Shown here: one piece after another, positions 2,609 to 32,978 of the stretch
How positions within the stretch are numbered: position 1 is the stretch's first letter
Layout: each line of letters opens with the position of its first letter
Made by a program: the position numbers and the translations under genes
The notes under the pieces: generated by a model
Seen by the model: the letters and a program-made list of their open reading frames with translations, nothing else
Told to the model about the DNA's origin: nothing
The model's database searches: none
Assembly: GCF_000003605.2 (NCBI RefSeq)
Contig: NW_003123908.1
Span: forward strand, 299,000-348,146
Origin: Saccoglossus kowalevskii
Lineage: Eukaryota > Hemichordata > Enteropneusta > Harrimaniidae
Direction: 5' to 3'
DNA: 49,147 nt

Positions 2609-2764
2609 TCGAGGAGCCAATTTCCACAAGTAGCCTAGAAATTTGATTTTGTAGCATCCCTAGTGCTTAAAATGCTTGAAAATATTTTCAGCTAGAGGGT
2701 CATTTTAGGGTCAATTTTTAGCCCTGTTAAAATGTAAAAAGCTGGCAGCAAAGTTATATTATGG

Positions 2765-5748
2765 GTGTTCAAATTGAGTATGTTCACAGGGCTCCAGGTC
2801 GTTTTTGATTGGTATATTTGTGCAGATGACACTGCGCTACTTACAGCTCACCAAACATTGGTGTGTGTGTGTGTGTGTTTATTAGCAAACCGTAACAAGC
2901 CACAACTAGTTTACTCAAGTGATATGTCACTGCAGGATGTAATTAATGCCGCAGCTACTACTTGCTTAAGTATGTCCACGGATATGTCCAACTGTGAAAG
3001 AACCACATCTGGGAATGCAGAAAGCCCAATGCAGTTACTTTATCATGCTGCACTAATTATCAAGGGTGATTTGACAGATTGCAATGGAATTAATACCAAT
3101 CCAGCTGACAATGAGGACCTCTTGAATGAAAAAGCTAAAGAAATAATAAGCCTTTACTGGGTTTTGAGATGGCTGACTACAAAGAAGGATGTAGAGACCA
3201 GTGAGTTTGGTAATCATAGTTGATGTTGTCAAAATGAAGCAGATGAGCGACATATCACCATGATTAGCCAAGATATTGTACACTGTGCAACACATGGAAG
3301 GAAGAAAATGCATAAACATAACAGTTTAGCCATGACTGTGAGGCACCTGACTGTGTCAAACAAGCTATTATTATCTTGAACCGTTTGGGACATTGTGCGT
3401 CTTATGTTGATATTGAGGTGGTTGACACAAGCTTAGCCCACGCAGAGAATACAGGTGTTGTTATTTCTACCAATATTGTTCCTAGTGCATTTGTCCAAAT
3501 GGCTGCAGATGGTATCATTGAAGAAACTTTAGATGGCAAGCAAACCACTCACTCTACTACATTGGTTGTGTACCAAAGGGGACAGTTTGGTTTAAAGCCA
3601 TTCAGAGTTGTACATGCAGACCATACTGTCAGGAGAAAAGCATTAATTGAAACAGACTATGTTCATAATATTCTGGAGTGTGGATTATTTGGTAAGAGAC
3701 CAACTGTCACATACCTCTTCAACAGCATCAATGTTGAATGGCACCAACGTAACAAAGACCTGGAAAAAAGTCAATTATCAATGGATCTGGTATGCGCAAT
3801 TCTCCGCATATACCCTACTAAGTTGTTTTAAGTGGATATCAACCATATGTCTAATCCAGAGAGACAAGTAGTATCCAGCTGGAGTTCCTTTAATGCACTT
3901 CAATGTACTTCAATGTAATAAACCACCAACCACAGAGATTGGTTACTATGCCCTATGATTGCAGGTTCTCCAACTGAATTTAGCGTTGTGTATACAGTCA
4001 TGAAGCAAGTTCACGAAGGTGCTGGGACAGGCAGAATCACATTCGACTTGGCGATTTATGTAAAAGAAAAGAAACTGCAGTGGAGACATGGAGAACAGTT
4101 TAATGAGACTGTGATCAGAAAGGGTGGTTTCCATATAGCTCTCAACTACTTGGCTGTTTATAGGGAAGCGCTTTGCAAACACAGGTCTAGAAGATCTTCT
4201 CATATAATCTAACACATATGGCGCTAACACAGCATCTTCTCTACTAAATGGTAATTCCTACAATCGTGGTGTTAGAGCTTATAAACTAGTGCTGGAAATC
4301 ACCTGAACACCAGATACATATGATGAAAGTTTAAACAGATAGATTGAAATATTCAGAGATCAAGCTGTAAAGAAAGGTGAAATAGTTGAGGAATTTGAAG
4401 AATTGTACAGAGATCTACGTGACATTCAACACAATTTCACGCCAGAACTCTTATATTGACTGACCGAGAGAACTAGAGACTGGAAGCTACATTTGTCTGC
4501 TGGAATGGTGCCTTTTTTAATGCATGGATAGAACCAAATACTCAACATGGTTACCCATGTATCTTTCTGATATGAATCAACTGCAATACACTAGCCCCCA
4601 GGTATATGAAGAGGGAAATCACCCTGTTAGTCGCTCGAATACACATTACAGTCAGGTTTGGACAGATATGGCCCTAGAACAGTCTGTCAACCTGGATTCC
4701 AAGAAACGTGGTGGGATAACAACTGCAACAAAAGACGTGTGTAGTCTGCAGATGAATGAATTTATTAGTGTGCGCAAGGAATTAATAAAACAGCGTCTGA
4801 CGAGAAATGAAAGTGATGTGCAGAAGCTTCTGACAGTATTTCACATCAGAGTTGATAATAAATCCATTCACAGTTGCAGGAGTTGTGGTACTAACAGAAA
4901 TGAGACCTAATATGGTGTATGCTGAGGAAATTGATAAAGAACATATGAATAAGTTCATTCAAGAATGAAAAGCTTCTGGGATTCCATACCACATTTGAAA
5001 TTAATAACATTTGCAAATCTAGTACAAAAGAAAGCAGTAAAGACAAAAGATGAGAAAGTTAAGAATGTGATTGCTGACAGAATTGTTTGGAAGACTGATA
5101 ATTGCAGCAACAACCCGGGATGTTGATCTGAAAAACGTACTGCCATATGAACTATCTGCAGTTTCTTTTGCACTGGCACATTCGGATGGAACTCTAAGAA
5201 AGAATAATAAGAGCATTTTGTTGGCAGAACTTGACTGGCTATAGCCGTGGTTTCGCAGCGTTTTGGGTAAACCACGGCTAGACTGGCTACGGTGCAAATG
5301 ACCAAATCAGCAGTAAATATTCTGGTGCTAACACATCTGTACCTAGATAGTGGAGCAAGTATATCAACAATCCTGTCACCAAAACTAATCTAAGTGCATA
5401 TTTATGTGAAAGATGGTGTCATATAGATCTAGAAATGTTGACTGCAGGTAAAACTGTCATTCTCGCTGGTGGATTTATAAATGGAATGGATGATGTGGCC
5501 ATTTCATTTAATCTAGTACAGCCCAATGATGTTCTAAGATCTGACTATGAGGAGGCTGACACACGCCTTGTCTTTCATGCAGCACATGCTTCCAACACGT
5601 ACTCAAGAGTTGTCATACAATCACCTGATAGAGATGTTGCTGTGTTGAGTGTATATGCAAAGAGGTCACTTAGTTGCAGTGATGTAGATATAGGCCTGTC
5701 AAAACGACCACCTACTCTGGTGAAAAATACCGGTTATTTTTCATTATG
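2765..5748 (+). pseudogene. Broken copy of a repeat-borne EADTR-family gene
   Basis: A chain of plus-strand frames, each interrupted, reads as one ancestral protein of roughly 900 residues. Recognisable blocks in order: QDIVHCATHGRKKM (about 3265-3310, after an in-frame TGA at 3221-3223); LNRLGHCASYVDIEVVDTSL (from 3376, after a frameshift near 3360); THSTTLVVYQRG (about 3550); GSPTEFSVVYTVMKQVH (from 3964); GGFHIALNYLAVYREAL (about 4123-4173); WLPMYLSDMNQL (from 4548); LPYELSAVSFALAHSDGTLR (about 5140-5200); and EEADTRLVFHAAHA with VVIQSPDRDVAVL (5549-5650). From memory, this block order recurs in uncharacterised multicopy proteins of corals, molluscs and other marine invertebrates. The EAD...SPD.DV portion resembles the acidic core of PIN/FEN-like nucleases, which is inference. 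At least one internal stop, several frameshifts and a palindromic insertion at 5242-5280 show that the copy is dead. A (GT)n run sits near 2863-2878. Confidence 0.75.
5233..5289. mobile_element. 39-bp palindromic insert with 9-bp target duplication
   Basis: GACTGGCTA occurs at 5233-5241 and again at 5281-5289. Between them lies 5242-5280, whose ends are perfect 12-bp inverted repeats: TAGCCGTGGTTT and AAACCACGGCTA. Removing the insert and one duplicate restores a continuous frame in the pseudogene. This is the structure of a very small non-autonomous transposon, or of what remains after internal deletion. Confidence 0.6.
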
Positions 5749-5931
5749 AAACAACAAATTTAGATAATAAAAAAAATTCGAAAAATATATTCTGTATACA
5801 CGGAATCGTAGCGTATTAAACGAATTCACGCATTCAAAGCTACGACAGTCTTTTTCCAAAGCAACACAGGGAAAATCTGTAGATGTTTGCTGAAAATTTA
5901 ACGTACTTCCGGATATGTTAATTACAATCAT

Positions 5932-6183
5932 ATGTGTATGACGTCATCATCCATTCTGACCCCTGGTTTTCTATGGCTCTATGCCCTTTATGTTTATTCA
6001 ACATGTTGTCAAACACATCGTCTACCCGGAAGAGAGCATCATCGAACCAGCATGGGCAGTCAACGATCAAGAATTTTTCAATTCCTGATAAAACAACTTG
6101 GTCGTTATATTAGATACATTCATGTCTCAGGTGAATCCTTAAGTGATGCCCAGACTGCACTAGTCCATGATTGTTATAAATAA
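5932..6183 (+). pseudogene. Possible 3' continuation of the EADTR-family relic
   Basis: An 83-codon open frame downstream of the main relic. Its end (FQFLIKQLGRYI followed by SLSDAQTALVHDCYK) loosely resembles the segment that follows the EADTR block in the family, where a leucine-rich stretch precedes a Leu-Tyr-Gly type motif. The first half does not match in any frame I tried. Between 5750 and 5930 the sequence is AT-rich with no match. It could equally be a chance frame. Confidence 0.25.
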
Positions 6184-7862: not shown

Positions 7863-10800
7863 TTAATCTCCACCGCCGGGCATTGGAATCATGTAATCAG
7901 GTACCTCAGCACAGGATTGACAGTCATCCTGGTCATCACAGTCTGGAAATTAGAGAGAGAGAAATTTAGTATTTTTATATTGATGTAACAGTCCTTGAAT
8001 GATAAAACTGACTAAACATGAGCTCATTGAACATCTAGAAATAATGTACAAGTTGTTTGGTGTCATAAACGCGTTCTATACTACGTCTACGACAAAACAC
8101 CATATTGACCGAAATTTGAAGAATCTTTTACTTTCTTTGAAACATTAATATATCATCTGTCCATTATTTGCCAATGACTGCAGGGATTTTGTTGCGAGCG
8201 AAACACCTAACTTTCAAACTTAATAGTATTTTAACCACTACTGTGCCATCACGTCCAATGTTCCAATTTACCATGATCAAAGAAACAGTTATATTATGTA
8301 AATCATCTAGTTGATTGTGACCTTTTGATAATTGTAAATACCTTTTAAAAATGCCAATGCATTCTGAATTCATTCACATGAATCACTCAAACACTTATTG
8401 ATGACAGATGGGAATGCCAATTGCATAATTAATTTTGCCTTCATTTTAAAATTTAGTCATGTTTACTTACTGAAGTACATGCATATGTATCCTTTTTCAT
8501 CCATGCAGTTATCCTCCTGCCATTTATAGTACGTGTCTTCCCTTGAATATATAATGATATGCATCAGTTAATATAAAAGTACATATTTTTTAAAATTTCC
8601 ACAAAACCTTAATATTTTACTTGCAGGTAATTAGATTAATACTATAACACTGTCAATCGGTTTATATAACAATACGATATAACATTTGACTAATCTACAT
8701 AAAAGTATTCTTCACCATTGAGTTATTAAGGGATACTTAATATGTTAACTTCCTTCTTTAGTGGAAAACTAGTTTTGTCTCACAAGCATAGGTTTGTTAT
8801 GCCTTCAGAATACAATCGACCCGAAGTGTCAAGTGTTTTTGCAAAACAAAAGTGGATAAAGGTTTTTCAGGTAAAATTAACAAGTGTATGGCATTTTAGG
8901 TAATTGTTTATAACCAAAACCTCTAGTTCAAGAGTGCTGACCAATAACAACACACAGCAAGCATTGTAGTCTCTTGGTATATTACCCGTTCATCGCATAG
9001 GTCCCATTTTGAATATCATAATAGATTAGCCTACCTGACAGATATACAGTCATTCATGTTATTTCCTTGTGCACCGTACCAGTTTTCATAACAATCCCCT
9101 GGGGTAACAACACTGCCATCAATCCAAGAATATGTCCCTTCCATCATTATGTCATTCAACCCAATCCATAAACCATCGTCAATCATTTCTACGGCATCGC
9201 CATCTGTGATTGTTACCGAAATGTGAAAGAATGCAATGGGAGTGTCCACAGTTGCAAGCATTCCTCCATCAGCTTGGCATGCAGCTGCTGCTTCCCACCA
9301 GCACTTCTTTTGCAGAAATATTTTATACTCTATACAAGAACATACTGGACCATGTACTGTAAAATACAAGAGAATCGTGGTAAACATGGTAAGAACGGCT
9401 AAACCACACTTCACTGCTGCCGAAAATAATGAATATACTGTGTTACGATATCATCTAATTGGTCAATTATGTTAGGTGCACTTGCACATTTCACTTAAGC
9501 TTTTGATTAGTCGTTCTCACGACCAAATATTGTCAATTCAAAATACTGTTTTCTAGGTTTTATTTAATTAATGAAAGACAACATAAGCAATCAGAATAGT
9601 TTAAATGGCATTTTTTCTAATCCTCGTTATTTTTACGTTACCGTAGCGTCATGGATAGAGGGCGTGACTTATAGGAAGTGAATATTTCGATTGTGTTGAG
9701 AGACTTCTGTTAGCTATACTATTCAATGTTCATTGCATATTGTTGTGGACATGTTAATTCCATGCTTTGAGTTGTTCCATCATCGTGAATGATGCTGTTG
9801 TCAACTATGACAACTAAGTGGTTGATCAGATTGCTTTAATATTCATTGTATGTAGAGATATTTTTGGTTTCTTAATTTGTATTTGTTATTTACCACATTA
9901 GTTGAATGATGTATGTTATTTAACTGAAATATACAGGTATAAATTGCATTCAATTTAGAAGTTGGGTCTCATTTGCTTGTTCTGTTAGAAGTAGTTTGTA
10001 ACGTATAATTACCTTCACATCCATCAATTGGAGGAGGGTTTGTGGGTTCTTCAGATGAACTATCACTTGAAGAGCTACCAGAGCTACTTGAAGAACTACC
10101 ACTACTGCTTGATCCACTTGACCCACCACTGCTACTGGAGCCACTTGAACTACGACTGCCACTGGAGCCAGTACTATTAGAACCACTGCTTTCCGAGCTA
10201 CTAGACTTAGAACTTCCACTGGAGCTCTTTGAACTATCACTTGGAGAGCTACTAGAGCCACTTGAACTACGACTGCCACTGGAGCCAGTACTATTAGAAC
10301 CACTGCTTTCCGAGCTACTTGACTTAGAACTTTCACTGGAGCTCTTTGAACTATCACTTGGAGAGCTACTAGAGCCACTTGAACTACGACTGCCACTGGA
10401 GCCAGTACTATTAGAACCACTGCTTTCCGAGCTACTTGACTTAGAACTTCTACTGGAGCTCTTTGAACTATCACTTGGAGAGCCACTAGAGCCACTTGAA
10501 CTACGACTGTTACTGGAGCCAGTACTATTAGAACCACTGCTTTCCGAGCTACTTGACTTAGAACTTCCACTGGAGCTCTTTGAACTATCACTTGGAGAGC
10601 TACTAGAGCCACTTGAACTACGACTGCTACTAGAGCCAGTACTATTAGAACTACTGCTTTCCGAGCTACTTGACTTAACACTTGAACCACTTGAGTGACC
10701 ACTGCTTTTTGTTTCTTCTGACTTACTACCACTGCTACTGGAGTCACTTGAGGTATCACCTTCCGCACCAAACGTTCGTTTCTATTGTACAATGGAAGAA

Positions 10801-12857
10801 TGATTTAACGAATTATATTCAAATAATTAAATTTACAAAATGATACAATTAAGAACGTTTGCTGCCCAGTGGTTGCATATTTTTAATAGAAAATAAAATG
10901 ATGTTCTACTTCAGCTCAAATTATTAGGGATAACCCTGTAAGACTTCAGTAAGTGCGAATACTATTACTAGTATCTCAAGAACTAACAATTGAGCATCTC
11001 GATGAAATTCGAAATAACCAAATCAACGATCATATGAATGTATTAAAGAAATAAGAGATAGATTAAGGTACTATGAAAAAAACAATATAAATGTCTCCCT
11101 AATTATATTGCAGGGTTGCATTATTTGACGATAAAAATGATATCTTGAAGACAATTATTCCTTTAATTCGTGTGAATTGTGTGTTATAGAGGCTGTGAAA
11201 TATAGTATTCGGTGTTGCCGTTATAAGAAAAAAACGTTCCTTGTAGGAATTGTTCGTTACGCACTGCCTCTTCGACTGCATTGTTGTTAACTGTATGAAA
11301 GGCCTTTTGATGCTGATAATGGTAAACATTACATTTTAGAATTGTAGAACTAAAATTTTACATTACATATGTTGTATGTTTGCAAACTTCATTACTGTAG
11401 ATGAAATTTTGAATCATTTTAAATCTTTTTTTTAATAATAGCATCAGAAAATATTATTCAGCAAAGTTACCCAAACTATATAAAACATGGCTGTATGTGG
11501 TTTTCACATGTTTTTTTTCGCTTGTGTATTTATATTAATTCCATATATTATGGCAGTTCCTGGTCGCCATACTATGTGACATTATTCACATTAGTTCATG
11601 CAAGCATATTTGACTTTGGAAATCATGGCTGAATTGCGCTTTCAACTCCTGTTTGCGCATGTATTTGGAGATTTGTTTGAGAAATGTAGAAACACGTAAT
11701 TTTGCTGAGGGTGATAGTTTCAAATATGAGAGTTACATTCCCACTTTGCATGATCTGCAGAAATTTTCTCAAGTATCATATAACGAGAGATTTGAATTCT
11801 GTACAGTTTATGAGAAATCGTATCCTACAATACAGAAGACTCTCCAAAAATAAAATAAAGAGGCCTACAGTTCAGAGCGGGCTAGCTTCAAAGCTCCAAT
11901 GTTTCAGGATTAGATGCCAAACCAATCGATTTTATCATTTTTTTATAGCGACTGCCATAGTCAGTAGTTGGTAGACATAAGGCAGCAATGGTTCCTTTAC
12001 AGAGTAGGTCTACCCACACAGTGCTATGCTAACAAGGGCTTATAAACGTATTTATCAAAATAAAATAATCAGCATATATTCAACAGAGCTAAACATTGTT
12101 TAAGCCTATAGTCCACAAATTACGATTTACATATTAGTTTTATCGTTTCAAAACAATATAACATTTTAGGCGAGTAAAACATTGAAATTGTTACAAGACT
12201 TAAAATCTAATAAACGAGGGTCACTCATGAGATATAGTCCGTACATTATTTCGGTGTTTTTTGATAATATAAGAACTTGGCTAGCAAGTGTTTTATAACA
12301 CATAATGAATTATCGATGACGCTCAATAAACTTCAATAATATAATAAAAAATAAGAACGCAAACACAATAATGAATATACAAAATAAAAAAATACATGAT
12401 CAGTTCTACATAAAAACATAATAACTGTGTACATATTGAATGTACGAACAAGCATGTAGAATCATTAGTTGACCACATGTTCACCAGGATGTTTCCGAAA
12501 CACCTGCCATTAAATCACCGACGAAGGCTTTGATATGCATGCCCTCTGCCTGTGATTTGGTGATGTATTTTGTTTGTCAGTCGTTTATTGAGTTTCTTAT
12601 CAGGGCATTTCCTTTAGAAAATCGTAGTTTACTCCACTTATTATGTTAGTGGACAATGAGGTCTTTCCGCTATTCGTAACTGATATTCATTCACCGTCGC
12701 TATTAAACCATGCCACGTGCATTATGTTTATATAGAACATGTCGGATTTGTATAAAACTGATTCACATTACATTCAACTTGCCTTTTTTTCCAAAGTAGT
12801 GGACGACACGTAGTGTAGTACTACCAAACTACACAACAGAACTACTAGTAACTTCAT
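7863..12857 (-). CDS. Secreted Ser-rich C-type lectin-domain protein A
   Basis: Five minus-strand exons, 1317 nt, 438 residues: 12857-12783, 10781-10013, 9356-9035, 8541-8471 and 7942-7863 (TAA stop). Phases at the four junctions are 0, 1, 2 and 1, the same as in the paralogue at 19670-23875. Residues 1-16 (start MKLLVVLLCSLVV) look like a signal peptide; a KKKR cluster spans residues 24-27. Residues 28-281 are a Ser/Gly-rich, presumably disordered stalk. Residues 282-412 are a long-form CTLD with GPVCSC at 284-289, WWEAAAACQ (301-309), WIGLND, CYENW, NDCISVRE and GYICMYF. The tail has N-C414...D-C420-Q-S-C423. There is no EPN or QPD triplet, and WQEDNC stands where WND is usual, so classical Ca-dependent sugar binding is doubtful. 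Exon 1 ends in a GC donor (AAG|GCAAGT). Exon 2 lacks a usable ATG, so simple ORF finding misses this reading frame. The exon 1 assignment is the least certain part. Confidence 0.85.
10100..10700 (-). repeat. 117-bp in-frame tandem repeat coding the Ser-rich stalk
   Basis: The landmark GTACTATTAGAA recurs at 10171, 10288, 10405, 10522 and 10639, exactly 117 bp apart, so the unit codes 39 residues. In the minus-strand phase fixed by the splice sites it reads SSSES, SGSNSTGSSGSR, SSSGSSSSPSDSSK and similar. Copies differ at a few positions only, pointing to recent expansion or homogenisation. Because 117 is a multiple of three, shadow frames on both strands also stay open: a Val-rich minus-strand frame of 280 codons and a Leu/Glu-rich plus-strand frame of 218. 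Confidence 0.95.
10782..12782 (-). other. Intron 1 of lectin gene A (GC-AG)
   Basis: Begins GCAAGT on the minus strand at 12782 and ends with CCATTGTACAATAG before the Ser-rich exon. The content is AT-rich. Plus-strand frames at 11653-11974 overlap each other and resemble nothing known. Confidence 0.5.
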
Positions 12858-12878
12858 TGTTGTATACCGTGTGTAGAT
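12783..12878 (-). CDS. First coding exon (signal peptide) of lectin gene A
   Basis: ATG at 12857 opens MKLLVVLLCSLVVLHY, a textbook hydrophobic leader, then VSSTTLEKK. The exon ends in phase 0 at AAG|GCAAGT (GC donor at 12782-12781), fitting the phase-0 acceptor of the Ser-rich exon at 10781. Other in-phase donors exist inside the exon (TTG|GTAGTA, TAC|GTGTCG) but would shorten the leader. Upstream, TTTCATTTCAG ends at 12879, so about 21 nt of 5' UTR (12878-12858) probably follow a 5'-UTR intron, as in the paralogue. The intron to exon 2 is about 2 kb. The link to the lectin exons rests on phase and on analogy with gene B. Confidence 0.65.
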
Positions 12879-12910
12879 CTGAAATGAAACATTAGAAGCA
12901 AAAAGTCTTA

Positions 12911-13255
12911 TCAACATTGTACAATGAATTGCGTTAATCTTGATAGCAGAAACCCTGTAATTGGAATGACTTCATCCAATAGACAATAGTCGTATTTGTT
13001 TGCATGTTTTTTGTTAATGACTGATAGAACTTCACCATCGGCCACATGGTCGATCACCGTAATTATCTCAAAAATTAACATATGGGTTGAAAAGAATGGA
13101 AAAAAATCAACATATTCATCAATTAAAATATTAATGAGCTGTCTCAAAATTAACATTGAAATAACATAAATTGACACTGACGTCTGGTGATGGATATACC
13201 ATTGTTCATCTAGTATAACGTTGTCATTCAACAAAATATGTGTATTGAAAAGCAT
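12911..13255 (-). CDS. Unrecognised 114-codon frame, doubtful
   Basis: An ATG-initiated minus-strand frame of 114 codons, just upstream (5') of the lectin A leader exon. It is rich in Ile, Leu, Val and Phe (for example SVSIYVISMLILRQLINILI) with a more polar C-terminal part (VINKKHANKYDYCLLDEV). It is long for such AT-rich DNA, but no family was recognised and no splice sites clearly bound it. It may be a chance frame within the 5' region of lectin gene A. Confidence 0.2.
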   Translation of the reverse strand: MLFNTHILLNDNVILDEQWYIHHQTSVSIYVISMLILRQLINILIDEYVDFFPFFSTHMLIFEIITVIDHVADGEVLSVINKKHANKYDYCLLDEVIPITGFLLSRLTQFIVQC

Positions 13256-13702
13256 GTGAACAAAATACTGTCTTTGTAATTAAACTTTGTTGGAGTAAAT
13301 GAAAGTAATGTAAAATTGTTGAAAGTTTGCGCAAATGAGTGACGATCACTCTCCGTGAATTCTACGTGGTGTAAATCGGGAGGACATTTTTTTAAATGTT
13401 ATATAATTATTAATTCGGACAGTCACGTAAATAACGTTTTCTATTCAGAGCCACTTTGCCTGTCTGTCCATGTTAAGCAAATTCATCTTTAAACTATATA
13501 CGATTGTTTCACCATACGTTACCGATTAAGATTTCGAGATACTATGTTGCGAAATTTTAAGAGTTCTATTTCCGTGTTTTGTACAATAAATATAATAATA
13601 CAATAAACTATAATTATTTATCTGGCTTTGAAAAGATTAACATAACACAGAACCAGATTGTACACATCACAATCGGATAATTGTGGTATCTAAATATTAA
13701 TG

Positions 13703-13821
13703 TTAAAGGGCGGTAGTCGTCGCGCCGCGCATGTGCGACATTTATGTTGATAAACATGGATTACCCCGCAATCTAATGCGCTCTTCAAATGGAAATCATA
13801 AGTATGAGTATCGCCCTTTAA
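13703..13821. mobile_element. 119-bp MITE with TTAA flanks
   Basis: Begins TTAAAGGGCGGTAGTC and ends GAGTATCGCCCTTTAA. The reverse complement of the right end matches the left end at 14 of 16 positions, giving terminal inverted repeats bounded by TTAA on both sides, the target-site type of piggyBac-like elements. The interior is CpG-rich compared with its surroundings. A 79-codon frame (13731-13970) starting inside it is not considered a gene. Confidence 0.65.
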
Positions 13822-14644
13822 GCAGTAGAATAACGGACACAACTGAAGAAATAACTTGTTTCATTCTTACTTCCGATATTCCTCACCGCGAACCCCTTAA
13901 GCAAAGAATGTTTTTGCAAAACATATCCGCCGTTTGCTTCCCTGAACAATTTTTCAGAATCAGTAATTGATGGAAACTGAGTTAATTACAAATATGTTAA
14001 TTTTCCTGGACGTTTTCTCAGCTCGTCATCGAAGCTAATATGTCAAAGAATGTATTACAATAAAAACGAAATCATGCTACGAGTTTAAAAATACACATCG
14101 CCATGTCTCAGTACGTGTACAATGTTTTCAAATAGGAGCCTACATTCGCGTGTAATTGTTAGTGGTGAAACTTCGTGACATAGTACAGGATGGGGTGGTA
14201 GATTATACACAATCTTAGTAGCAGTCTTCTCTTCGTTCGTATGAATTCACCAAATTAACTTCTGCTTCCAATTTTCAGTGCCATTTCTATGGTCCACAGT
14301 GTTAATTAAATTTGAGTCTTCGATTTATATAATACAATGTGTACATCGCATATCACCACACAGATGGAAGTTGATGAAGAGTTGATAGCAGAGTTTACTA
14401 AATTTAGAACTTTTAACGCAATCTATTGTGGTTAGCGTATTAGTCATGTTTTTCGTTGGAGACACGTAACACGATTTGAGCAGCGGCATGTGATGTTCGT
14501 ACTCGATAATTTGTAATAAATAACCAAACAATTATTGTAGTGCTACGTAACGTAAACACGGTGTCAAAAACAGTCAAACTTGTGTGTGTGTGCGACATTT
14601 GTTGAAAATCAAAAAATATAGTGTAAAAATCTCAACTAACTCAC

Positions 14645-14740
14645 CTTCAGTTGGGTATTCCGGTCTTGGTCTTGTCTCACTGATCCCCTCAATACTCGGA
14701 CACTGGACTTTATTTCTGTTTACGCAGTCGTGGCATTTAT
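14645..14740 (-). CDS. Candidate minus-strand exon, Cys-containing
   Basis: A 96-nt segment bounded by a modest acceptor (TACAAATAG) and a strong donor (GAAG|GTGAGT). It reads KCHDCVNRNKVQC and then PSIEGISETRPRPEYPTE. It is phase 1 in and out, so joined to the candidate exon at 17543-17604 the split codon is GAT (Asp). The acceptor lacks a good pyrimidine tract next to the AG. No family recognised. The Cys spacing is faintly like the Cys-rich last exon of the lectin genes, which also starts in phase 1. Confidence 0.25.
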
Positions 14741-17542
14741 CTATTTGTACACGTGTATTAGAAACAACCAAACAAACGCGGCCGGAAAGATAGGTTCGTG
14801 TCCAACGAAACTGGACATACGTTTTCGAAGAAATGTAATTACATTTTAATTAATTTTGCGTTGGATGCACGTACACCGCCCTGTCGTGACGACATGGCTC
14901 AGTATATTAATGTTATCCTGTGTTGTTTGGTATGTTTTTTTGTCTTCTTATTTTCCTTTACTGTAATAATTGTCGAAGGTTGTTAATGTACTCTGTAATA
15001 ATTGTCGAATGTTTTTAATTTGCGTTTCACTTTTCAAACATCGCATAATATATACATAGATTAAACACATTAATTAATGTAACATATAGTCGTTGGCCAG
15101 CTGTTTGTTTTCTTGTTAAATTGTATTTGTGGTAAACTCCTGGCAGTGCATAATCTGCAAAATGTCCTGTCCACGGAACATTACATTGGTGAATCATTTG
15201 CCTGATACATTTCTAGAGTTTTAATATATTTTAAATCTAGCATCAATTCCAGAATTTCATTATTTAAAATAAGCGCTGTATGGATGTTACTAGCAGAGGT
15301 TAATTAAATGTAGTTGTTTTAATCAAAACAAAACAGGACATATGTCTACGTATTCTACGTTTGAATTAATTCTGACAAACGCATGCGTGTATATATTAAT
15401 GCATTGCTAGTATGGTAGTCGCACGTTTCCGGTAAAGATCTGCGACAATTCACTGGATAATACACCATTTTACAGCTCCAAAGGTTCAATTACAATTAAT
15501 ATATTAACTTTTGTTAATTAAAATCCAGTCATCCGTAGAATCGCGACCCAAATATATATGTGTATACTCTAATGTATATTATCACAATAATAGCTATTTG
15601 TTGTATGTTACGTCATATACGGTATGATTAGAAGAAGTGTCATGGGACACCCCCCCCCCGTGTGTTTATCCATTACGAGTGTTGGTACCACAAAGCATTA
15701 GACCACAGAGCATTTCTGGAACGGTGATATGGAGGGACTGTTATTTAACCTAAACGATAACCAATTAGAAATTTTAAAATAATGTGTTCTAATGTATGGG
15801 GTGAGATCAGTGCCAAAAACATTTCATTTAGCATTTTACTATTACACTATTATGTTCACATTATTTTTTCATTTTGTTAGCTTTTATAATTATTCAATCA
15901 TTATGTTCACATTTTTGTTATAATTATGTTTCAAACTCCCTAGATTAGCGTAGGCGCGAGTGCATGCGTAGTTGGTTTTAAACAATATACGCATGTGTGG
16001 CATAAATATACTAGTATCTTGTATTTATATTCCAGTGTACTAATACAGCATAATAAGCGAAGGTCTGATTTCACATAATAGACCTACAAACTAAGTATAG
16101 CTCTAAACCATGTACTTTCACACTCAAGCAAGAGAAGAGACATGCTGGTGACCTAGCCTTACACTGTGAGTGTTTTATTGTTTGCAGTTTGTAAAATACC
16201 TTTTTTTTTCACAAATAAAAAATTAAAATAAAAAAGAACTGCAGACCTCACATCTTTGTATTTTTGTGAGGCCAGCCAAGTTTCCACATACAAAAATACA
16301 CACTATATTTCTTGTTCAGAATACCATTTATTCCCGACATCATATTCAGTGGCTAGTTTTCAGGATCTACAACAGTAATAAATAAACAGAAATCGTTTTG
16401 AAGACACCGCCATATCTTGATTTGTACCATACCATTTCAAGCTACAGGGTGTCTAAACAATGACTCAACAACCAATAAACACATCTTCCACCCACCACAA
16501 ATAATTGAACAACCAAGTAAGCAACTAATATCAAGCTACATCCTGAAAACTATGAGAGAGCACATTGCAACCAGTCATTACAAACATGAAATCCTCCACC
16601 CCTCCCAATACACCCTACATCATTAATGGTTCCTATACTCATTACCCAATAGATGCACCTGACTCATCAAACTTTTGACCAACCACTCATTCTAATAATT
16701 ATTGTTGAGTGAGGGCGCTATTTACTAATGAGAGGAACCTTTTAAAAAAAATTAAACATCTATATATGTCATTTAATAGTCCCGCTCAGACGGAATAATT
16801 TGCATTATGTTTCAGTTTCGAAAAAGGCAGACAGTTGATAATAAAAAATTATAACTCGAAAATATTTAGGTACAGAATATTTTTAATCAAAAATCTATTC
16901 TCGTTGAGTCACTGCTGCGCTGAAACACTGCACCGTGGCCAATCTTCAAGAACACGTTGTTTGTTAACTGACGACGTTGGCGTGTCACTTTGTACGTACC
17001 GTGGACGATTTTTCGCTATATAGTAAACTATATAAAACTTCCATGATTAAATAAATTACTAGTATACTGCTAGTACTAGGTTATGATTCTAATATAAACA
17101 TTTAATAATCTGCAAACTGTAACCTGACCTGCAACCTGTACTCTGTGTAACTTTGCTAAATTTCAGCAGCTTGATGTCCGGTAAGACAACCTTTCGTCAT
17201 GTGATATCAATTAAAACATTGATAAAAGGACAATAATGAAAAAAAGAAGTCTTGGTCCCCGGTTGCCGTAGTAAACCGATGTCGTTGCTACACTGCATGT
17301 GATTTATTTCAAATTATCAGTTAATGACAGTACCGCCATTATGTTCCGAATCTGAAATAAATTCCAAATACACAATAATATACTATCAAATATAATAATG
17401 TATGCATACTATTTTAATATGTAGTTTCTCGTAGATGCAAACCTAACAAAAACAAGTAGATGAGAGAAGTGATTTTAATTCGCAAAAGTAATTCGATTTC
17501 AAACACATACGATCCATACTGTCATTGACAACAAACACTTAC

Positions 17543-17604
17543 CTCTAAATATGTGATCGGTGTCACCAAAGAATAACGTGTTTCTGACGCATGTATCACT
17601 TTTA
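17543..17604 (-). CDS. Candidate minus-strand exon, 62 nt
   Basis: A strong acceptor (CATTATTTCTGACTTTAG) and a perfect donor (AGAG|GTAAGT) enclose 62 nt that are open in one frame: KSDTCVRNTLFFGDTDHIFR. It enters in phase 2 and leaves in phase 1, like exon 4 of the lectin genes, though the peptide does not align convincingly with that exon. It may belong to an unrecognised minus-strand gene or be a splice-like accident. Confidence 0.3.
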
Positions 17605-19391
17605 CTAAAGTCAGAAATAATGATGGAAAAATACTTAAAATCATTCATGTAAAAGATAACAATTATATGAAAACTTTAAAACCATTGGCATTATGGGTAC
17701 ATTTTGTTCGGTGCATTTTGGCCGAGTATAATAATACACTGGCAAATAAGTATCGACGTGAAAAGTGATATGTAATTCGTGTGTTTGTGTCATTTTGTGG
17801 AAAGACGTGATATTTATAAAATGTTACTGGTAGCTTTTTGTACATATGATTATATAAATTGAATCATTTACTGTCGTAAGAGTATTCAAATTACCAATTG
17901 ACATTCATCGATTTGTATCGAAACTAACTATATCATGCATTTGTTGCTTATTGTCCGTGAATGAAAAAAAAAAAAAACGTTTCCAGACTTGAGATGGAAA
18001 GTGGGTCTTAGGGTCAAACACGGTGAAGACATCAACATTCCAAACGAGTGAACCCTATTTATTTAATACTAGGGTAAGATTTCGGTCAATTAATCGTTTC
18101 ATTAATTGTTATAAAAAAAAATAGTACAGCTATTCTTTTTTTTTTCAAGAAGATCATACTCTGTTTGTTTAAGAATTGCAAATTATCGCCATCCAAGACC
18201 AAATTGTTAATGCTTTAATTTGTAACAATTCACGCAAAGTATGGATACTATATTGTTTTTATGCCATAATTATCATACGTATATTACAACATAGGGTGTC
18301 ACCCCATCTATGATAGTTCCGCCATGCACTTTGCATTGACTACATACCAACTGAATGTTGATACAGACACTGAACTTGGATTGAGGTAATGAATTTCAAA
18401 CAAGAAAAGGTAGCCTTATTGGGTCCACGTTGGTAGTTGTAGGACTTGAGTCAAATGAAATACCACAAATTAAAACGCCAAATACTAAAACGAAGCCTAG
18501 TCGCGAAGAGACCGCGTAGAAATAATGAATGCTTATCCCCTCCACGCCAACTTGATTAGCAAAGAAGATTACTTTTACAAAAAAATACACAGAATGTATT
18601 CATTTTTCAATAAATTATACTACCTGTTGATATAACGATGTTGACTACTACATTTAGCTCATCAGCATATGGTGGTTATGATTAAGTGAAAGGCAGCCAT
18701 ATTAGTATTAGTGAGTGTTACCATTGGTAGCTATGGTGGAGATAGCGTACTACCTTTTGATTGATGGCTGGTGACATAGGGTGAAAAAACCATATAACAC
18801 TGAAGAGGTACTTTTGTTATCCCGAATTATTTAACAAAACTGGGGTTGGTTTTAACTATAGAATTTTGGTGTACTATGGAATTGTTTAAATTAGAATAAT
18901 ATTCAACCGAATTTCTCAACGTATGATACTGTAAAATGTAGACAAATGCTGTTACCATAGAAATGGAGCTTCATGATTGTATATAATAAATTATTAATTA
19001 CATCACAACTGATAAAATGATAGTCAGATCTCAAGTTTTGTAGACGTCATCACCCCAAAGCAGTACTGTTAATACATATAACGAAGTTGTTTCAACCTAT
19101 AGAATACACGATGACGTTCGTCACCTAGTTAGTAAAAAGCGTAGTAAAAAATCAAGAATAACACAAAAACATACGATATTGTGATTAATTAAATAGAAGC
19201 ATCAGAAAACGCACAGAATTCCGTATTCATCGATATATACCAACAATCACACCGTATGGTGTACCGTTCCACACCTTACGGAATAGGACTGAAGAATTCA
19301 GTGTTTGGATTATCCAATTTTCTTTTTAGAAAACAAGTATCTGTATGTATGTAACACCAAAGAAAAGAAGGTACACGTCAGCTTAGTGACA

Positions 19392-19398
19392 ATAAATA
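19392..19398 (+). promoter_or_regulatory. TATA-like box of lectin gene B
   Basis: ATAAATA, about 30 bp before an initiator-like TCATTTC (19422-19428) and upstream of a probable non-coding first exon that ends at 19469. Confidence 0.35.
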
Positions 19399-19424
19399 GC
19401 CTGGTGTTGAAACTGACACATTCA

Positions 19425-19469
19425 TTTCACCAAGCACGTCGACTTTTTCCAGAGTCACTCATTCGTAAG
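19425..19469 (+). other. Probable 5'-UTR exon of lectin gene B
   Basis: Ends at TCGTAAG|GTAAGT, a perfect donor. The next acceptor (GGTTATTTTTTAAG) ends at 19657, just 12 nt before the ATG, giving a 188-bp intron in the 5' UTR. The start of the exon is estimated from the TATA-like box and is approximate. Confidence 0.5.
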
Positions 19470-19669
19470 GTAAGTCTACTCGCGTCGCGCGTGAAACCTC
19501 ACTAATAAGTATGGCATCGTGCGAGATATCGCCGCTGGTTGTATAATGTACAAAAGACACTAACGTGCTTCTGTTAATTGCTCACGTGGTTAGTTACACT
19601 CAGCGATTTATATTTTCAAGACGGTTGAAACACTGCTCATCTTGGTTATTTTTTAAGGCATTGATAAGA

Positions 19670-22600
19670 ATGAAGATTCTTTTGATATCCATGCTGGCCC
19701 TGCTCCTGGTTGTTGCGATGTGCAACGCAGTAAGTATAGTGTTGTTATATAGAGTATGTTATTGCAATGTAACATGATTAGAACTAATTGAGAATATTGG
19801 GTTTGGGGGGAGGCAAAGTTTTAAATTAACACTTTATATATTTTGTGAAGAGAAATTGCTGCCTCGGTCGCAAATTTGATTTCTTTTTGCCTCGAACATT
19901 GGGCAGCTTATAAATAAACCGAAAGTCAATCAATTTAGAGACTGGGTGTTTGGGATTGCAAGTCTCTCTGTTTAACGTGCTATTCTAATTGGGTCATTGT
20001 GTGAGAATGACAACGGATCATGAAATAGAAAGAAAGTACACTTTTGTGACGTTTTTTTTGGACTTTATGTGACGCATAATGTGATGGTAATTTATACATC
20101 TGTTCACATGAATGACAAATAGAATAATCAACTTAAATCATTAAATGGGTTGTAGTTATATTAATGTGTTCATATCAAGCTGCCAGTGTATCACTTTTAG
20201 TATTACTAATGTGCGATTGGTCTGTAAAATCAAACTTGAAGTCAATCGTTTAGATGAAATGAGAAAACATTCACGCAAGCTACGATTAGGTAGCAGTGTT
20301 TACTAGTATATCTTTTTATGTGAACTTAGAATCCCGTTCACGCAAGCTACGAGATTACAATGTGTTTGATATTGTCATCAAATTACCCTCTACAGATGAT
20401 AATCTTGAATATGATGCTTCAGTTATAATTTGTTAATGGACTCTTCTTTATATATTATTCTATGTGTTATTTGTCGGATTTTTGCTATATTTGTTATATA
20501 TTTGTTCGTAACCATCATTCATTTTTTCATTCAATGCGATATCTGATGTTTCATTTCGTAGTTTGGTTCTTGTTGTATTCTCTCAATATTGTTATATCCA
20601 CACAGGGGAAACGTGGAAATAGTTCAGGCCATAAACATAAAGACAGCAAAAATAAGCCGGGAAGTAATTCAGTCAGTACCAGTAAAGAAAATAGAGGCAG
20701 TGGCAGCAATAAAAATAAAGACAGCGGCAGTGACAGCGATAAAAATAAAGACAGCGGCAGTGACAGCGATAAAAATAAAGACAGCGGCAGTAGTAGCAGC
20801 AGCAGCAGCAGTGGAAGTAGTAGCCGAAGCGACAGCGATTCCGGTGAACAAGAAGAAATTATAACGGGTATGTTCTAACACAAGCACATATACTGTAAAA
20901 TACTATATTTTCGTTTGCAACTAATTTGCTATTTTCGCGTAAGGAATGATTCAATGAAAATAAAATCCAGCGAATATACCTTGTTTTCTATATTTCACAT
21001 TCAACTCATCAAAAGTCAGTGAAAATAAATTCCATACAAAACACCCAAAAAGTCTTTTCAGCTGAAATAAAGTATTTTACAATGGTTATGGGGTATCATA
21101 ACATAAGCACACACATGACTTAGGGGCTACAATCTGAAATCTTACAATTAGGACATGGAATGAGTGGTTCGGCTTCACTTTGTAGTGATGTATAGGTAGA
21201 CGGATCGGCGTTCGTCTTCCGGTTGTCTTCTTCTCAAAAACCGCTGAGCCGATTTGTAAAGGTGTAGATGAGAATTCATTCATGAGAAGATTATATGCCA
21301 AATATTAATAAAATTAGTGAAACGATAGCTATCAAAAATGGGTAATTTTCCCCAAATTACTTTTTTTTTTCCTGGTAGTATTGCTCCTCAGTGCGGTTAG
21401 GATGACCACTATTAAACATAATTCTCTAATTATGGTAAATATTTTGACTACCTCTTGAAAACGTGCAGCCCGAGTGTATTGTTACGTTGGGATATGGTCA
21501 ATATGGGGGGGGGTCTCTCGTCTGTCTGTCTGTCTGTCTGTCTGAGTGTGTCAAATCGTATTCTTTAAATATCTCAAAAACCCACTGGCTGGAATAAAAT
21601 GCAATTTGGCACACAGATACTTTGCGATGAACTCCGAACCCTGGTTAAATGTTGGTATAAATTCGTGCATGTTTATCATGCTATTTGCTTAATAATTAAC
21701 AAAATTTTGGTCATAAGTTATGTTGACAACTTCATACATGCATACTGTTTGTGTAGTTGAATTTCAAAAAGTACTTTCAGTAGGTGTTTTTCTTTTCACC
21801 ATGTGATCTCGCGCATCGCATAAAAGGCGAGAAACGAATGTTTGCCGCAAAAATCGAATGATTTGAATTGTTTGTATAGCCCAATGTTGAAACGTTGACC
21901 TTTCAGAGAGAATTACGTCAGATAAAGGTCACTACAACAAAACTGACAATCATCAAATGTGTATAGCACATTTTAAAGCAAAAACAATGCTTTGAATTTG
22001 CGTTTGTCGAATCCCTTGATGTTTTGACGTCACTAGGACGCTATTACTTTTGTTTATTTTACTTTGATTTCATGCATAACGGGAGATCTCACAGTGAACG
22101 AAAAATTATCTGTTAATCTGTATATGTTAATTGCCTAATTTGCACATTAATTACTACTTTCGGCATGCTTGTTGATATCTTATAATTTTTCGTATGGGTT
22201 AAAACTTGCTAACATCATGATGTACATGTATAGTATTTGAAATATAATTATTGTTATTTTCATCTTTTTCATATATTTTATAATTATTTTGTGTACTAAC
22301 ATCAGTTTGGTTACATGAATCACGACATATCAATATATTTGAATCAATATATAAAGCAGTAAGAGTTGTGGTAACGTAGAAATGAGTATATGTTAACAAA
22401 TATTGGACTCAGTCCACACGGGAGAACTTTCTAGCATCTCTAGTGTGAAGATATTTCAGGGAGTATATCACATCGTATAACATCTATCATACATTTCACC
22501 GTTATACGTAAACTGTAACATTAATGCGCTTAGAGTCATATATGCATGTTTAGTAAACCAAACATCTGTGTAAGTTTGGTGAAAAAAACGCCTTTTTATG

Positions 22601-23875
22601 AAAGTCCTCTCCTCTCTCCCATTAGATGGACTGAACATGCATTTTATATTTCGAACCCACTTTTGTCACTTAAATTACATACACCATCGACATATCTTGC
22701 TGCGTAAACCTGTATTTCAATTTCTTTCAATGGGTAAATCTTCTGAAATCCTCGTCGCTGCCTTATTTTCCCACTTTCCCTTGCCTAATTGTAAGTGCAA
22801 AACTCATGCGCACATGCACAATTGAAAAAAAGTTGTATATCAACTTGCAATAATGAACAAGAGTAGCAAAAAATACTCAAACCTATATTTAAAATTCCTC
22901 AATTCCCGTGTTTTATGTATATTGTTTCAATTATTTATTCAAAGGACCTCTCTGTGACTGCATGGATTTCAAGTTCTTTTCTAACAAAAAATCCTGGTTC
23001 GATGCAAAAGCGTCTTGTGAAGATAATTTGGGAAGACTGGCGATTGTCACAAATGAAGAGCTACAAGCAATGATCGAGAATCAACTTCAAAGTAATACAC
23101 TGGAATCTGGTTTATGGGTTGGGTTGAGTGACGTAGATATTGAGAGCGAGTTTATTTGGGATGATGGTACGAAGATCTGTTATTCTAATTGGGCTGATTG
23201 GGCGCCCGCTACCGACGGAAACGACACTGACTGCGTGATGATCAGGTATTTGTTTATTTCTCAAACTATACGCGTTCCTTGTCTCGGAGTCATTTGGGCA
23301 ACATCTGTGGATGAGTATTACCATAGACCTATGGTATTACTAAAAGAAACCAGGGAAGGAAACGAGTCGAGTCTTAGACTTCTTGCAATGACAATCTACA
23401 CACTGTGCTAAGTCTCGGTGTCAACTCGACACAGATAGAGCAGACTGACTATGTGAACCAATATTTATTACACATTTTGACTAATTAATATATATTATAG
23501 TCCAGAAATGTTGTTTTTTTAATATTTTTTTTCACACATTTCACAGAGGGGATAACTATCAATGGCAGGACGCTGACTGTTATGAACCACGTGGTTACAT
23601 ATGCGAATTCCCAGCGTTAGGTATTTATCTATTAAGTTATAAATCCAAAGTTTAAAATGGCTGTGACTTTTGAGCCAAATCTTGCATATGCTTGCATCCT
23701 TATAAGTACCAACTCATTTGCATATACAAGAACGTATTTCAATCATTCTACAAAAAGAACTGTGTTTTTTTTCAATTATTAAGTGAATATACTCCTATAT
23801 CGATATTTATACAGTTTATTTTGCTGTGTTTTTGTTTCAGATTGTCCTACAGACTGCATTTCATGTTCAGTATAG
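19670..23875 (+). CDS. Secreted Ser-rich C-type lectin-domain protein B
   Basis: Five plus-strand exons, 732 nt, 243 residues: 19670-19729, 20606-20867, 22945-23245, 23547-23620 and 23841-23875 (TAG stop). All introns are GT-AG; junction phases are 0, 1, 2 and 1. Residues 1-20 (MKILLISMLALLLVVAMCNA) are a signal peptide ending exactly at the exon boundary. Residues 21-107 are a Ser/Lys/Asp-rich stalk with a 10-residue repeat (NKDSGSDSDK, period 30 bp). Residues 108-232 are a long-form CTLD: C111-x-C113, SWFDAKASC (124-132), WVGLSD (165-170), IWDDG (178-182), CYSNW (186-190), DTDCVMIRG (201-209), WQDADC (214-219) and YICEF (225-229). The tail is DCPTDCISCSV. There is no EPN or QPD triplet, so sugar binding of the classical kind is unlikely. 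It is a clear paralogue of the gene at 7863-12857, transcribed away from it. The exon joins are supported by phase, by consensus and by the continuous CTLD they produce. Confidence 0.92.
20269..20352. repeat. Direct repeat TTCACGCAAGCTACGA in intron 1
   Basis: Two perfect 16-bp copies, near 20270 and 20337, about 67 bp apart in the first coding intron of lectin gene B. Confidence 0.6.
20701..20800 (+). repeat. 30-bp in-frame repeat in the Ser-rich exon of lectin gene B
   Basis: AAAAATAAAGACAGCGGCAG recurs at 20711, 20741 and 20771. The unit of 30 bp codes 10 residues (Asn-Lys-Asp-Ser-Gly-Ser-Asp-Ser-Asp-Lys). An AGC run coding poly-Ser follows. Shadow frames rich in Ala and Val are by-products. 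Confidence 0.9.
20891..21083. mobile_element. TACTGT-type MITE, copy 1 (in lectin B intron 2)
   Basis: Begins TACTGTAAAATAC and ends near AGTATTTTACAATG. It carries internal GCGAATATACC and CATTCAACTC segments shared with the copies at 29636-29847 and 35444-35656. The right terminus has decayed. Confidence 0.7.
21505..21544. repeat. G9 run and (TCTG)6 microsatellite
   Basis: Nine G at 21505-21513 followed by TCTCTCG and six TCTG units at 21521-21544, within lectin B intron 2. Confidence 0.9.
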
Positions 23876-23975: not shown

Positions 23976-23981
23976 AATAAA
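23976..23981 (+). terminator. Poly-A signal of lectin gene B
   Basis: AATAAA about 100 bases after the stop codon at 23873-23875. Confidence 0.65.
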
Positions 23982-31900: not shown

Positions 31901-32978
31901 TAATACTGAGCTCACAAGACTGTAATGCTCACAAGACTGTAATGCTCACAAGACTGTAATACTCACAAGACTGTAATGCTCACAAGACTGTAATACTCAC
32001 AAGACTGTAATGCTCACAAGACTGTAATACTCACAAGACTGTAATGCTCACAAGACTGTAATGCTCACAAGACCGTAATGCTCACAAGACTGTAATGCTC
32101 ACAAGACTGTAATGCTCACAAGACTAATACTCACAAGACTGTAATACTCACAAGACTGTAATGCTCACAAGACTGTAATACTCACAAGACTGTAATGCTC
32201 ACAAGACTGTAATGCTCACAAGACTGTAATGCTCACAAAGACTGTAATGCTCACAAGACTGTAATGCTCACAAGACTGTAATGCTCACAAAGACTGTAAT
32301 GCTCACAAGACTGTAATGCTCACAAGACTGTAATGCTCANNNNNNNNNNNNNNNNNNNNNNNNNNNNNNNNNNNNNNNNNNNNNNNNNNNNNNNNNNNNN
32401 NNNNNNNNNNNNNNNNNNNNNNNNNNNNNNNNNNNNNNNNNNNNNNNNNNNNNNNNNNNNNNNNNNNNNNNNNNNNNNNNNNNNNNNNNNNNNNNNNNNN
32501 NNNNNNNNNNNNNNNNNNNNNNNNNNNNNNNNNNNNNNNNNNNNNNNNNNNNNNNNNNNNNNNNNNNNNNNNNNNNNNNNNNNNNNNNNNNNNNNNNNNN
32601 NNNNNNNNNNNNNNNNNNNNNNNNNNNNNNNNNNNNNNNNNNNNNNNNNNNNNNNNNNNNNNNNNNNNNNNNNNNNNNNNNNNNNNNNNNNNNNNNNNNN
32701 NNNNNNNNNNNNNNNNNNNNNNNNNNNNNNNNNNNNNNNNNNNNNNNNNNNNNNNNNNNNNNNNNNNNNNNNNNNNNNNNNNNNNNNNNNNNNNNNNNNN
32801 NNNNNNNNNNNNNNNNNNNNNNNNNNNNNNNNNNNNNNNNNNNNNNNNNNNNNNNNNNNNNNNNNNNNNNNNNNNNNNNNNNNNNNNNNNNNNNNNAATA
32901 CTCACAAGACTGTAATACTCACAAGACTGTAATACTCACAAGACTGTAATGCTCACAAGACTGTAATGCTCACAAGAA
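31901..32978. repeat. 17-bp minisatellite interrupted by an assembly gap
   Basis: Tandem units of ACTGTAATGCTCACAAG, with a common GCTC/ACTC variant and a few one-base insertions (CACAAAG). The array is cut by Ns at 32340-32896, so its true length is unknown. It resumes on the far side in the same orientation. Confidence 0.95.
32340..32896. other. Assembly gap, 557 N
   Basis: Unsequenced bases inside the 17-bp array. Any open frame crossing it is meaningless. Confidence 1.

Follow-up and report, generated by a model that had tools for sequence, protein, structure and literature searches.

A divergent pair of genes joining Ser-rich stalks to C-type lectin domains in Saccoglossus kowalevskii

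Gene structure

The window analysed here, a stretch of 49,147 nucleotides from the hemichordate Saccoglossus kowalevskii (contig NW_003123908.1, positions 299,000 to 348,146), contains two divergent genes, A on the minus strand and B on the plus strand. Each has five coding exons, with predicted products of 438 (A) and 243 (B) amino acids. In gene A, exon 1 (window positions 12857-12783) encodes a hydrophobic leader (MKLLVVLLCSLVVLHYVSSTTLEKK) and ends in phase 0 at a GC donor. Exon 2 (10781-10013) encodes a Ser-rich stalk of 256 residues, 156 of them Ser, which opens with KR, carries a 117-bp tandem repeat and ends in phase 1. The first part of the C-type lectin-like domain (CTLD), starting with CxC, lies in exon 3 (9356-9035, ending in phase 2) and its end, YKWQEDNC...GYIC, in exon 4 (8541-8471, ending in phase 1), followed by a Cys tail, CDDQDDCQSC, and the stop codon in exon 5 (7942-7863).

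Gene B has the same layout. Its leader (MKILLISMLALLLVVAMCNA) is encoded by exon 1 (19670-19729, phase 0) and its stalk, rich in Ser, Asp and Lys, by exon 2 (20606-20867, ending in phase 1); the stalk has 87 residues, 30 of them Ser, opens with GKR and carries a 30-bp tandem repeat. The CTLD again starts with CxC in exon 3 (22945-23245, ending in phase 2) and finishes with YQWQDADC...GYIC in exon 4 (23547-23620, ending in phase 1), and exon 5 (23841-23875) encodes the Cys tail DCPTDCISCSV and the stop codon. An AATAAA sequence lies 3' of this exon, at 23976. The leaders of both genes were judged hydrophobic by inspection, and we predict secretion from them.

All eight acceptors of the predicted splice joins are AG and seven of the eight donors are GT. 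The exception is the GC donor of gene A intron 1 (window 12783; AAG/GCAAGT), the context of which is otherwise consensus. Outside the leader, A has 12 cysteines and B has 10, counts that are even in both, as required for all of them to pair in disulfides. A preliminary description of this DNA had proposed a divergent pair with leader, Ser-rich stalk, CTLD, Cys tail and common intron phases of 0, 1, 2 and 1, and both models do read in frame with these phases. The pair is real and well modelled.

Elsewhere in the window, Rfam gave no matches at gathering scores, and none of ten other open frames had a Pfam match over the curated cut-off. Several long plus-strand open frames at 2738-6183 look gene- or transposon-like; six were tested in Pfam, none exceeding the cut-off. 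A 182-residue open frame at 48600-49145 runs off the window end and has sub-threshold Pfam matches only. The window also contains a 23-bp tandem array of about 67 copies (1013-2542, 88% matches) and, at 31910-32977, 17-bp tandem arrays (31910-32339 and 32897-32977) flanking a run of unread bases.

CTLD homology and site motifs

The Pfam family Lectin_C matches both products well above its cut-off of 22.6 bits (A: 58.2 bits, 1.5e-15; B: 74.7 bits, 1.2e-20), and is the sole Pfam domain above cut-off in each. Across the CTLD and tail, A and B are 37.9% identical over 132 aligned codons, with 0.40, 0.42 and 0.60 differences per first, second and third codon position; differences are thus most frequent at the third. 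Their local alignment score is 261, while 1000 shuffles gave a mean of 34.9 (sd 6.3) and a maximum of 71. The two domains are homologous, which bears out the paralogy proposed earlier.

We also looked for a trace of inverted duplication in the non-coding flanks, and rejected this candidate. Seven weak opposite-strand matches were found, with nothing datable among them; the best (61 bp, 74%, E 2.4e-4; 9116-9175 and 23108-23167) lies inside both CTLD exons, and the remaining six have E values of 0.034 or worse.

Calcium-dependent sugar-binding C-type lectins carry two motifs, one of EPN or QPD type with a cis-proline and one of WND type ahead of the third core Cys; these read EPN and WND in mannose-binding protein A (sequence confirmed against 1msb). 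Neither motif is found in A or B. At the EPN position A has QGN or AQG, depending on the alignment, and B has APA; at the WND position A has WQE and B has WQD. Among 14 relatives of the same exon layout, xP[N/D] is retained in 11 and absent in three, though the 11 include three near-identical copies and most of the set was chosen for high Pfam score, which favours canonical members. Exon 4 was recovered for eight of 14 genes scanned, seven with WDD and one with WYD; the search pattern required W and, two residues on, D, E or N, so that other forms would escape it.

The canonical sugar/calcium site therefore seems to have been lost from both domains, judging by these motifs. The departures make the term "lectin", in the sense of sugar binding, doubtful for A and B, and the earlier view of them as sugar-binding lectins is not supported. 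By inspection, the core Cys, GLW[IV]GL and GYIC are present in both, but the canonical site motifs are intact in neither.

Relatives in the genome

To place the pair within its genome, we searched the 572-Mb, 4830-contig assembly. It contains at least 147 Lectin_C matches on 81 contigs at an E-value cut-off of 0.001, a minimum because 150 of 480 candidates were scored. The molluscan haemocyanin domain PF14830 had no match, and neither did it in control genomes, which makes its absence uninformative. One match (C4613:481026-481202) lies in a 5929-residue open frame, unusually long for one exon. In the window itself, tblastn revealed no third CTLD copy (other matches had E values of 0.56 or worse). 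Further copies, which the preliminary description had suggested seeking nearby, are thus absent from the window and form a large family elsewhere in the assembly. Two pattern matches occurred in viral contigs, neither of them a relative.

Besides itself, gene A matches B best (59.7 bits, the runner-up having 57.5), while the best non-self match of gene B is a locus on contig C2228 (65.8 bits), followed by A (60.0 bits). Apart from matches to its own exons, A had none above 45% identity and B none above 49%, so a close copy was not seen for either gene. With exon 3 alone, B scores 192 with C2228 versus 180 with A, and a poorly resolved tree of exon-3 domains does not place A and B together. Whether the two are sisters is not settled by that tree, but the shared WQ, stalk, Cys tail and loss of the proline motif, together with their adjacent positions, favour a sister relationship.

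The C2228 gene (locus L051), read for exons 1-3 with splice joins predicted from sequence, has a leader (MYNTILIVITLCIVSSSE) ending in phase 0, a second exon of 23 codons (ASSLNVDILSRDLDLLGVQKRSP) ending in phase 1, and a third exon that contains LLCDCQEYKIF and has the same CxC start as in A and B and a phase 2 end. It retains a QPN motif. We found no Ser-rich frame between its leader and CTLD. Its short exon 2 contains Lys-Arg, as does exon 2 of both A and B, where the dipeptide falls within the first three residues. The presence of this short Lys-Arg-bearing exon in place of a stalk points to stalk growth within a propeptide exon, and the stalks of A and B probably arose by repeat expansion inside an exon like that of C2228.

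Stalk repeats

The two stalks differ in length (256 vs 87 residues) and in repeat unit, as the preliminary description had noted. In A the 117-bp unit is present in 4.7 copies and in B the 30-bp unit in 3.2 copies, each with 96% matches. Besides its 156 Ser, the A stalk contains 31 Gly and 8 Pro, and the B stalk contains 11 Gly and 1 Pro besides its 30 Ser. Both are near neutral (pI 5.96 for A and 8.19 for B). Summed over six pairwise comparisons, copies 0-3 of the A repeat show 20 amino-acid-changing versus 3 silent codon differences, as expected if composition and length outweigh sequence, and the sequence within the A stalk seems weakly constrained.

Long stretches of the A stalk exon are open in other frames as well, in a second frame on its own strand (284 amino acids) and on the opposite strand (229 amino acids). 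Openness alone is hence no proof of coding, which is shown instead by the splice phases and homology. When the stalks were used as queries against the genome (99 candidates scored for A and two for B), they matched their own genes alone, with the A query abridged to 192 of 256 residues (64 repeat-region residues omitted), the B query comprising all 87, and low-complexity filtering that may hide matches. We also scanned 20 stretches, each of 7.8-10 kb and in some cases overlapping, for Ser-rich open frames with 14 or more Ser in 30 and found none; CTLD exons are present in 18 of these stretches, which together cover part of the at least 147 Lectin_C places.

Gene order

We counted 52 pairs of CTLD neighbours within 20 kb, of which 39 are on the same strand (a count that includes exons of one gene), seven are convergent and six are divergent. 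Four of the divergent pairs belong to one array on contig C4110, one is A and B, and one is on C4724. Head-to-head order was rejected as a strong mark of function, as that of A and B is not unique in the family. A special bidirectional promoter is likewise unsupported; the start codons are separated by 6.8 kb, in which TATA-like words are common.

The C4110 array (positions 1-37799, L031-L034) consists of tandem units of about 8 kb, approximately 98-99% identical over long matches, each with a divergent CTLD pair, giving four full pairs and one extra exon. It could be a recent duplication or an assembly effect. By inspection, a phase-1 leader seems to be joined directly to the CTLD exon in these genes. 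Contig C3820 holds more diverged sequence partly similar to this array.

Comparison with known proteins

Both A and B are variants of an already known architecture, a repetitive region with a CTLD. Vertebrate PRG2 and CLEC11A are secreted and have a low-complexity N-terminal region followed by one CTLD without the canonical site, although this region is acidic rather than a Ser repeat. Among solved structures, members of the mannose receptor family (MRC1, LY75 and PLA2R) are the top matches for both domains, a rank raised by summing several domains per chain; single MRC1 domains also match well, with 60.5 bits for B and 36.5 for A. These are large multi-CTLD receptors, whereas A and B each combine one CTLD with a stalk and additional Cys.

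The spicule matrix proteins also join CTLDs to repetitive regions, according to PMC4336488 and PMC5460417. By the descriptions there, sea urchin SM50-type proteins resemble A and B in combining a CTLD with low-complexity repeats; they are secreted, have repeats whose number and sequence evolve more quickly than the CTLD does, and are encoded by duplicated genes. However, their repeats are acidic, enriched in Pro and Gly and, in SM50, at the carboxyl end, while those of A and B are Ser-rich, near neutral, Pro-poor and N-terminal to the CTLD. The pair thus has a CTLD, as spicule matrix proteins do, but falls outside their definition, its repeats being neither strongly acidic nor Pro-rich. In sea star skeleton, PMC5460417 reports no confident CTLD protein, so even among echinoderm hard parts the presence of CTLDs is not a general rule.

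Perlucin and other CTLD shell matrix proteins are, by description, secreted invertebrate CTLD proteins of biomineral matrices (PMC4897951); perlucin has carbohydrate-binding ability, unlike what the motifs suggest for A and B. The nearest case in the papers covered is from the rotifer Adineta ricciae, a secreted CTL with a Thr/Ser-rich N-terminal region, which differs in being Thr-rich as well and for which the section on it describes no pair arrangement. Among the titles and abstract openings covered, we found no description of a Ser-stalked CTLD pair.

Proposed origin and role

The explanation we favour, though we would put it at somewhat below an even chance, is that A and B are offshoot, sister-like members of the large CTLD family, in which a repeat-expanded Ser stalk carries a site-lost CTLD head as a component of secreted material (matrix, mucus or adhesive). 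A short propeptide exon with Lys-Arg, between leader and CTLD, would have been lengthened by tandem-repeat expansion into a flexible Ser-rich stalk, and the canonical sugar/calcium site would have been lost in both genes. The leader would export the protein from the cell, and a putative dibasic cut just past it would leave the stalk at the start of the mature protein. Probably bearing phosphate or O-glycans, this region would serve as a hydrated, disordered spacer, and the CTLD and Cys tail, rich in disulfides, would form a folded head whose binding partner may be a protein, a polyanion or a mineral. As to role, a secreted protein of a matrix, mucus or adhesive is the most likely. The preliminary description had likewise raised matrix, mucus or shell roles, any of which may apply.

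Several observations sit uneasily with this explanation. The exon-3 tree does not join A and B, and exon 3 puts B marginally nearer C2228. The stalks are near neutral, unlike the strongly acidic spicule repeats. Deuterostome CTLD skeletal matrix proteins are said in PMC4897951 to lack sugar-binding activity, which would be a precedent for the proposal, but PMC5460417 has spicule matrix CTLDs binding carbohydrates.

The proteins could instead act in secreted immune recognition, with CTLD heads that bind microbial surfaces, Ser-rich stalks that space or multimerise them, and family expansion reflecting an immune arms race. The large CTLD family and the near-identical tandem array on C4110 fit this, as does the high expansion of CTLs in molluscs, annelids and brachiopods, tied to immunity in PMC8878817. 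We nevertheless consider it unlikely, given that A and B depart from the xPN and WDD motifs of most relatives read and that the stalk has no recognisable multimerisation domain over the Pfam cut-off. We judge it less probable still that the pair encodes proteoglycan-like carriers, in which Ser-Gly sites of the stalk would bear glycosaminoglycan chains and turn the protein into a charged, gel-forming rod headed by a CTLD, much as in vertebrate PRG2 or the lecticans. SG dipeptides number 22 in the stalk of A and seven in that of B, where they have acidic neighbours (DSGSDSD), but SG is often expected in Ser/Gly-rich repeats. Finally, one or both loci might be non-functional or mis-modelled, for example as unexpressed duplicates or as stalk exons not joined to the CTLD. 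The GC donor of A intron 1 and the other open frames of the A stalk exon could be read this way. Set against the intact frames, matching phases, even Cys counts and a domain identity of 35-38% with differences most frequent at third positions, this seems very improbable.

Returning to the stalked, site-lost matrix-type protein that we favour, a bolder form of the proposal is possible, although we hold it more tentatively. The genome may record the passage from a sugar-binding lectin to a structural tether, in which a 23-codon Lys-Arg propeptide exon was inflated to stalks of 87 and 256 residues, both halves of the site were lost, and a lineage-specific divergent pair acquired a new role in binding something other than sugar. 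Ordinary family members, a relative with the short exon and a stalked pair with degraded sites all appear to occur in this one genome, and the step from a lectin to a tethered matrix-type protein could thus be traced exon by exon. More generally, a check of the site is advisable before CTLD proteins are named "lectins".
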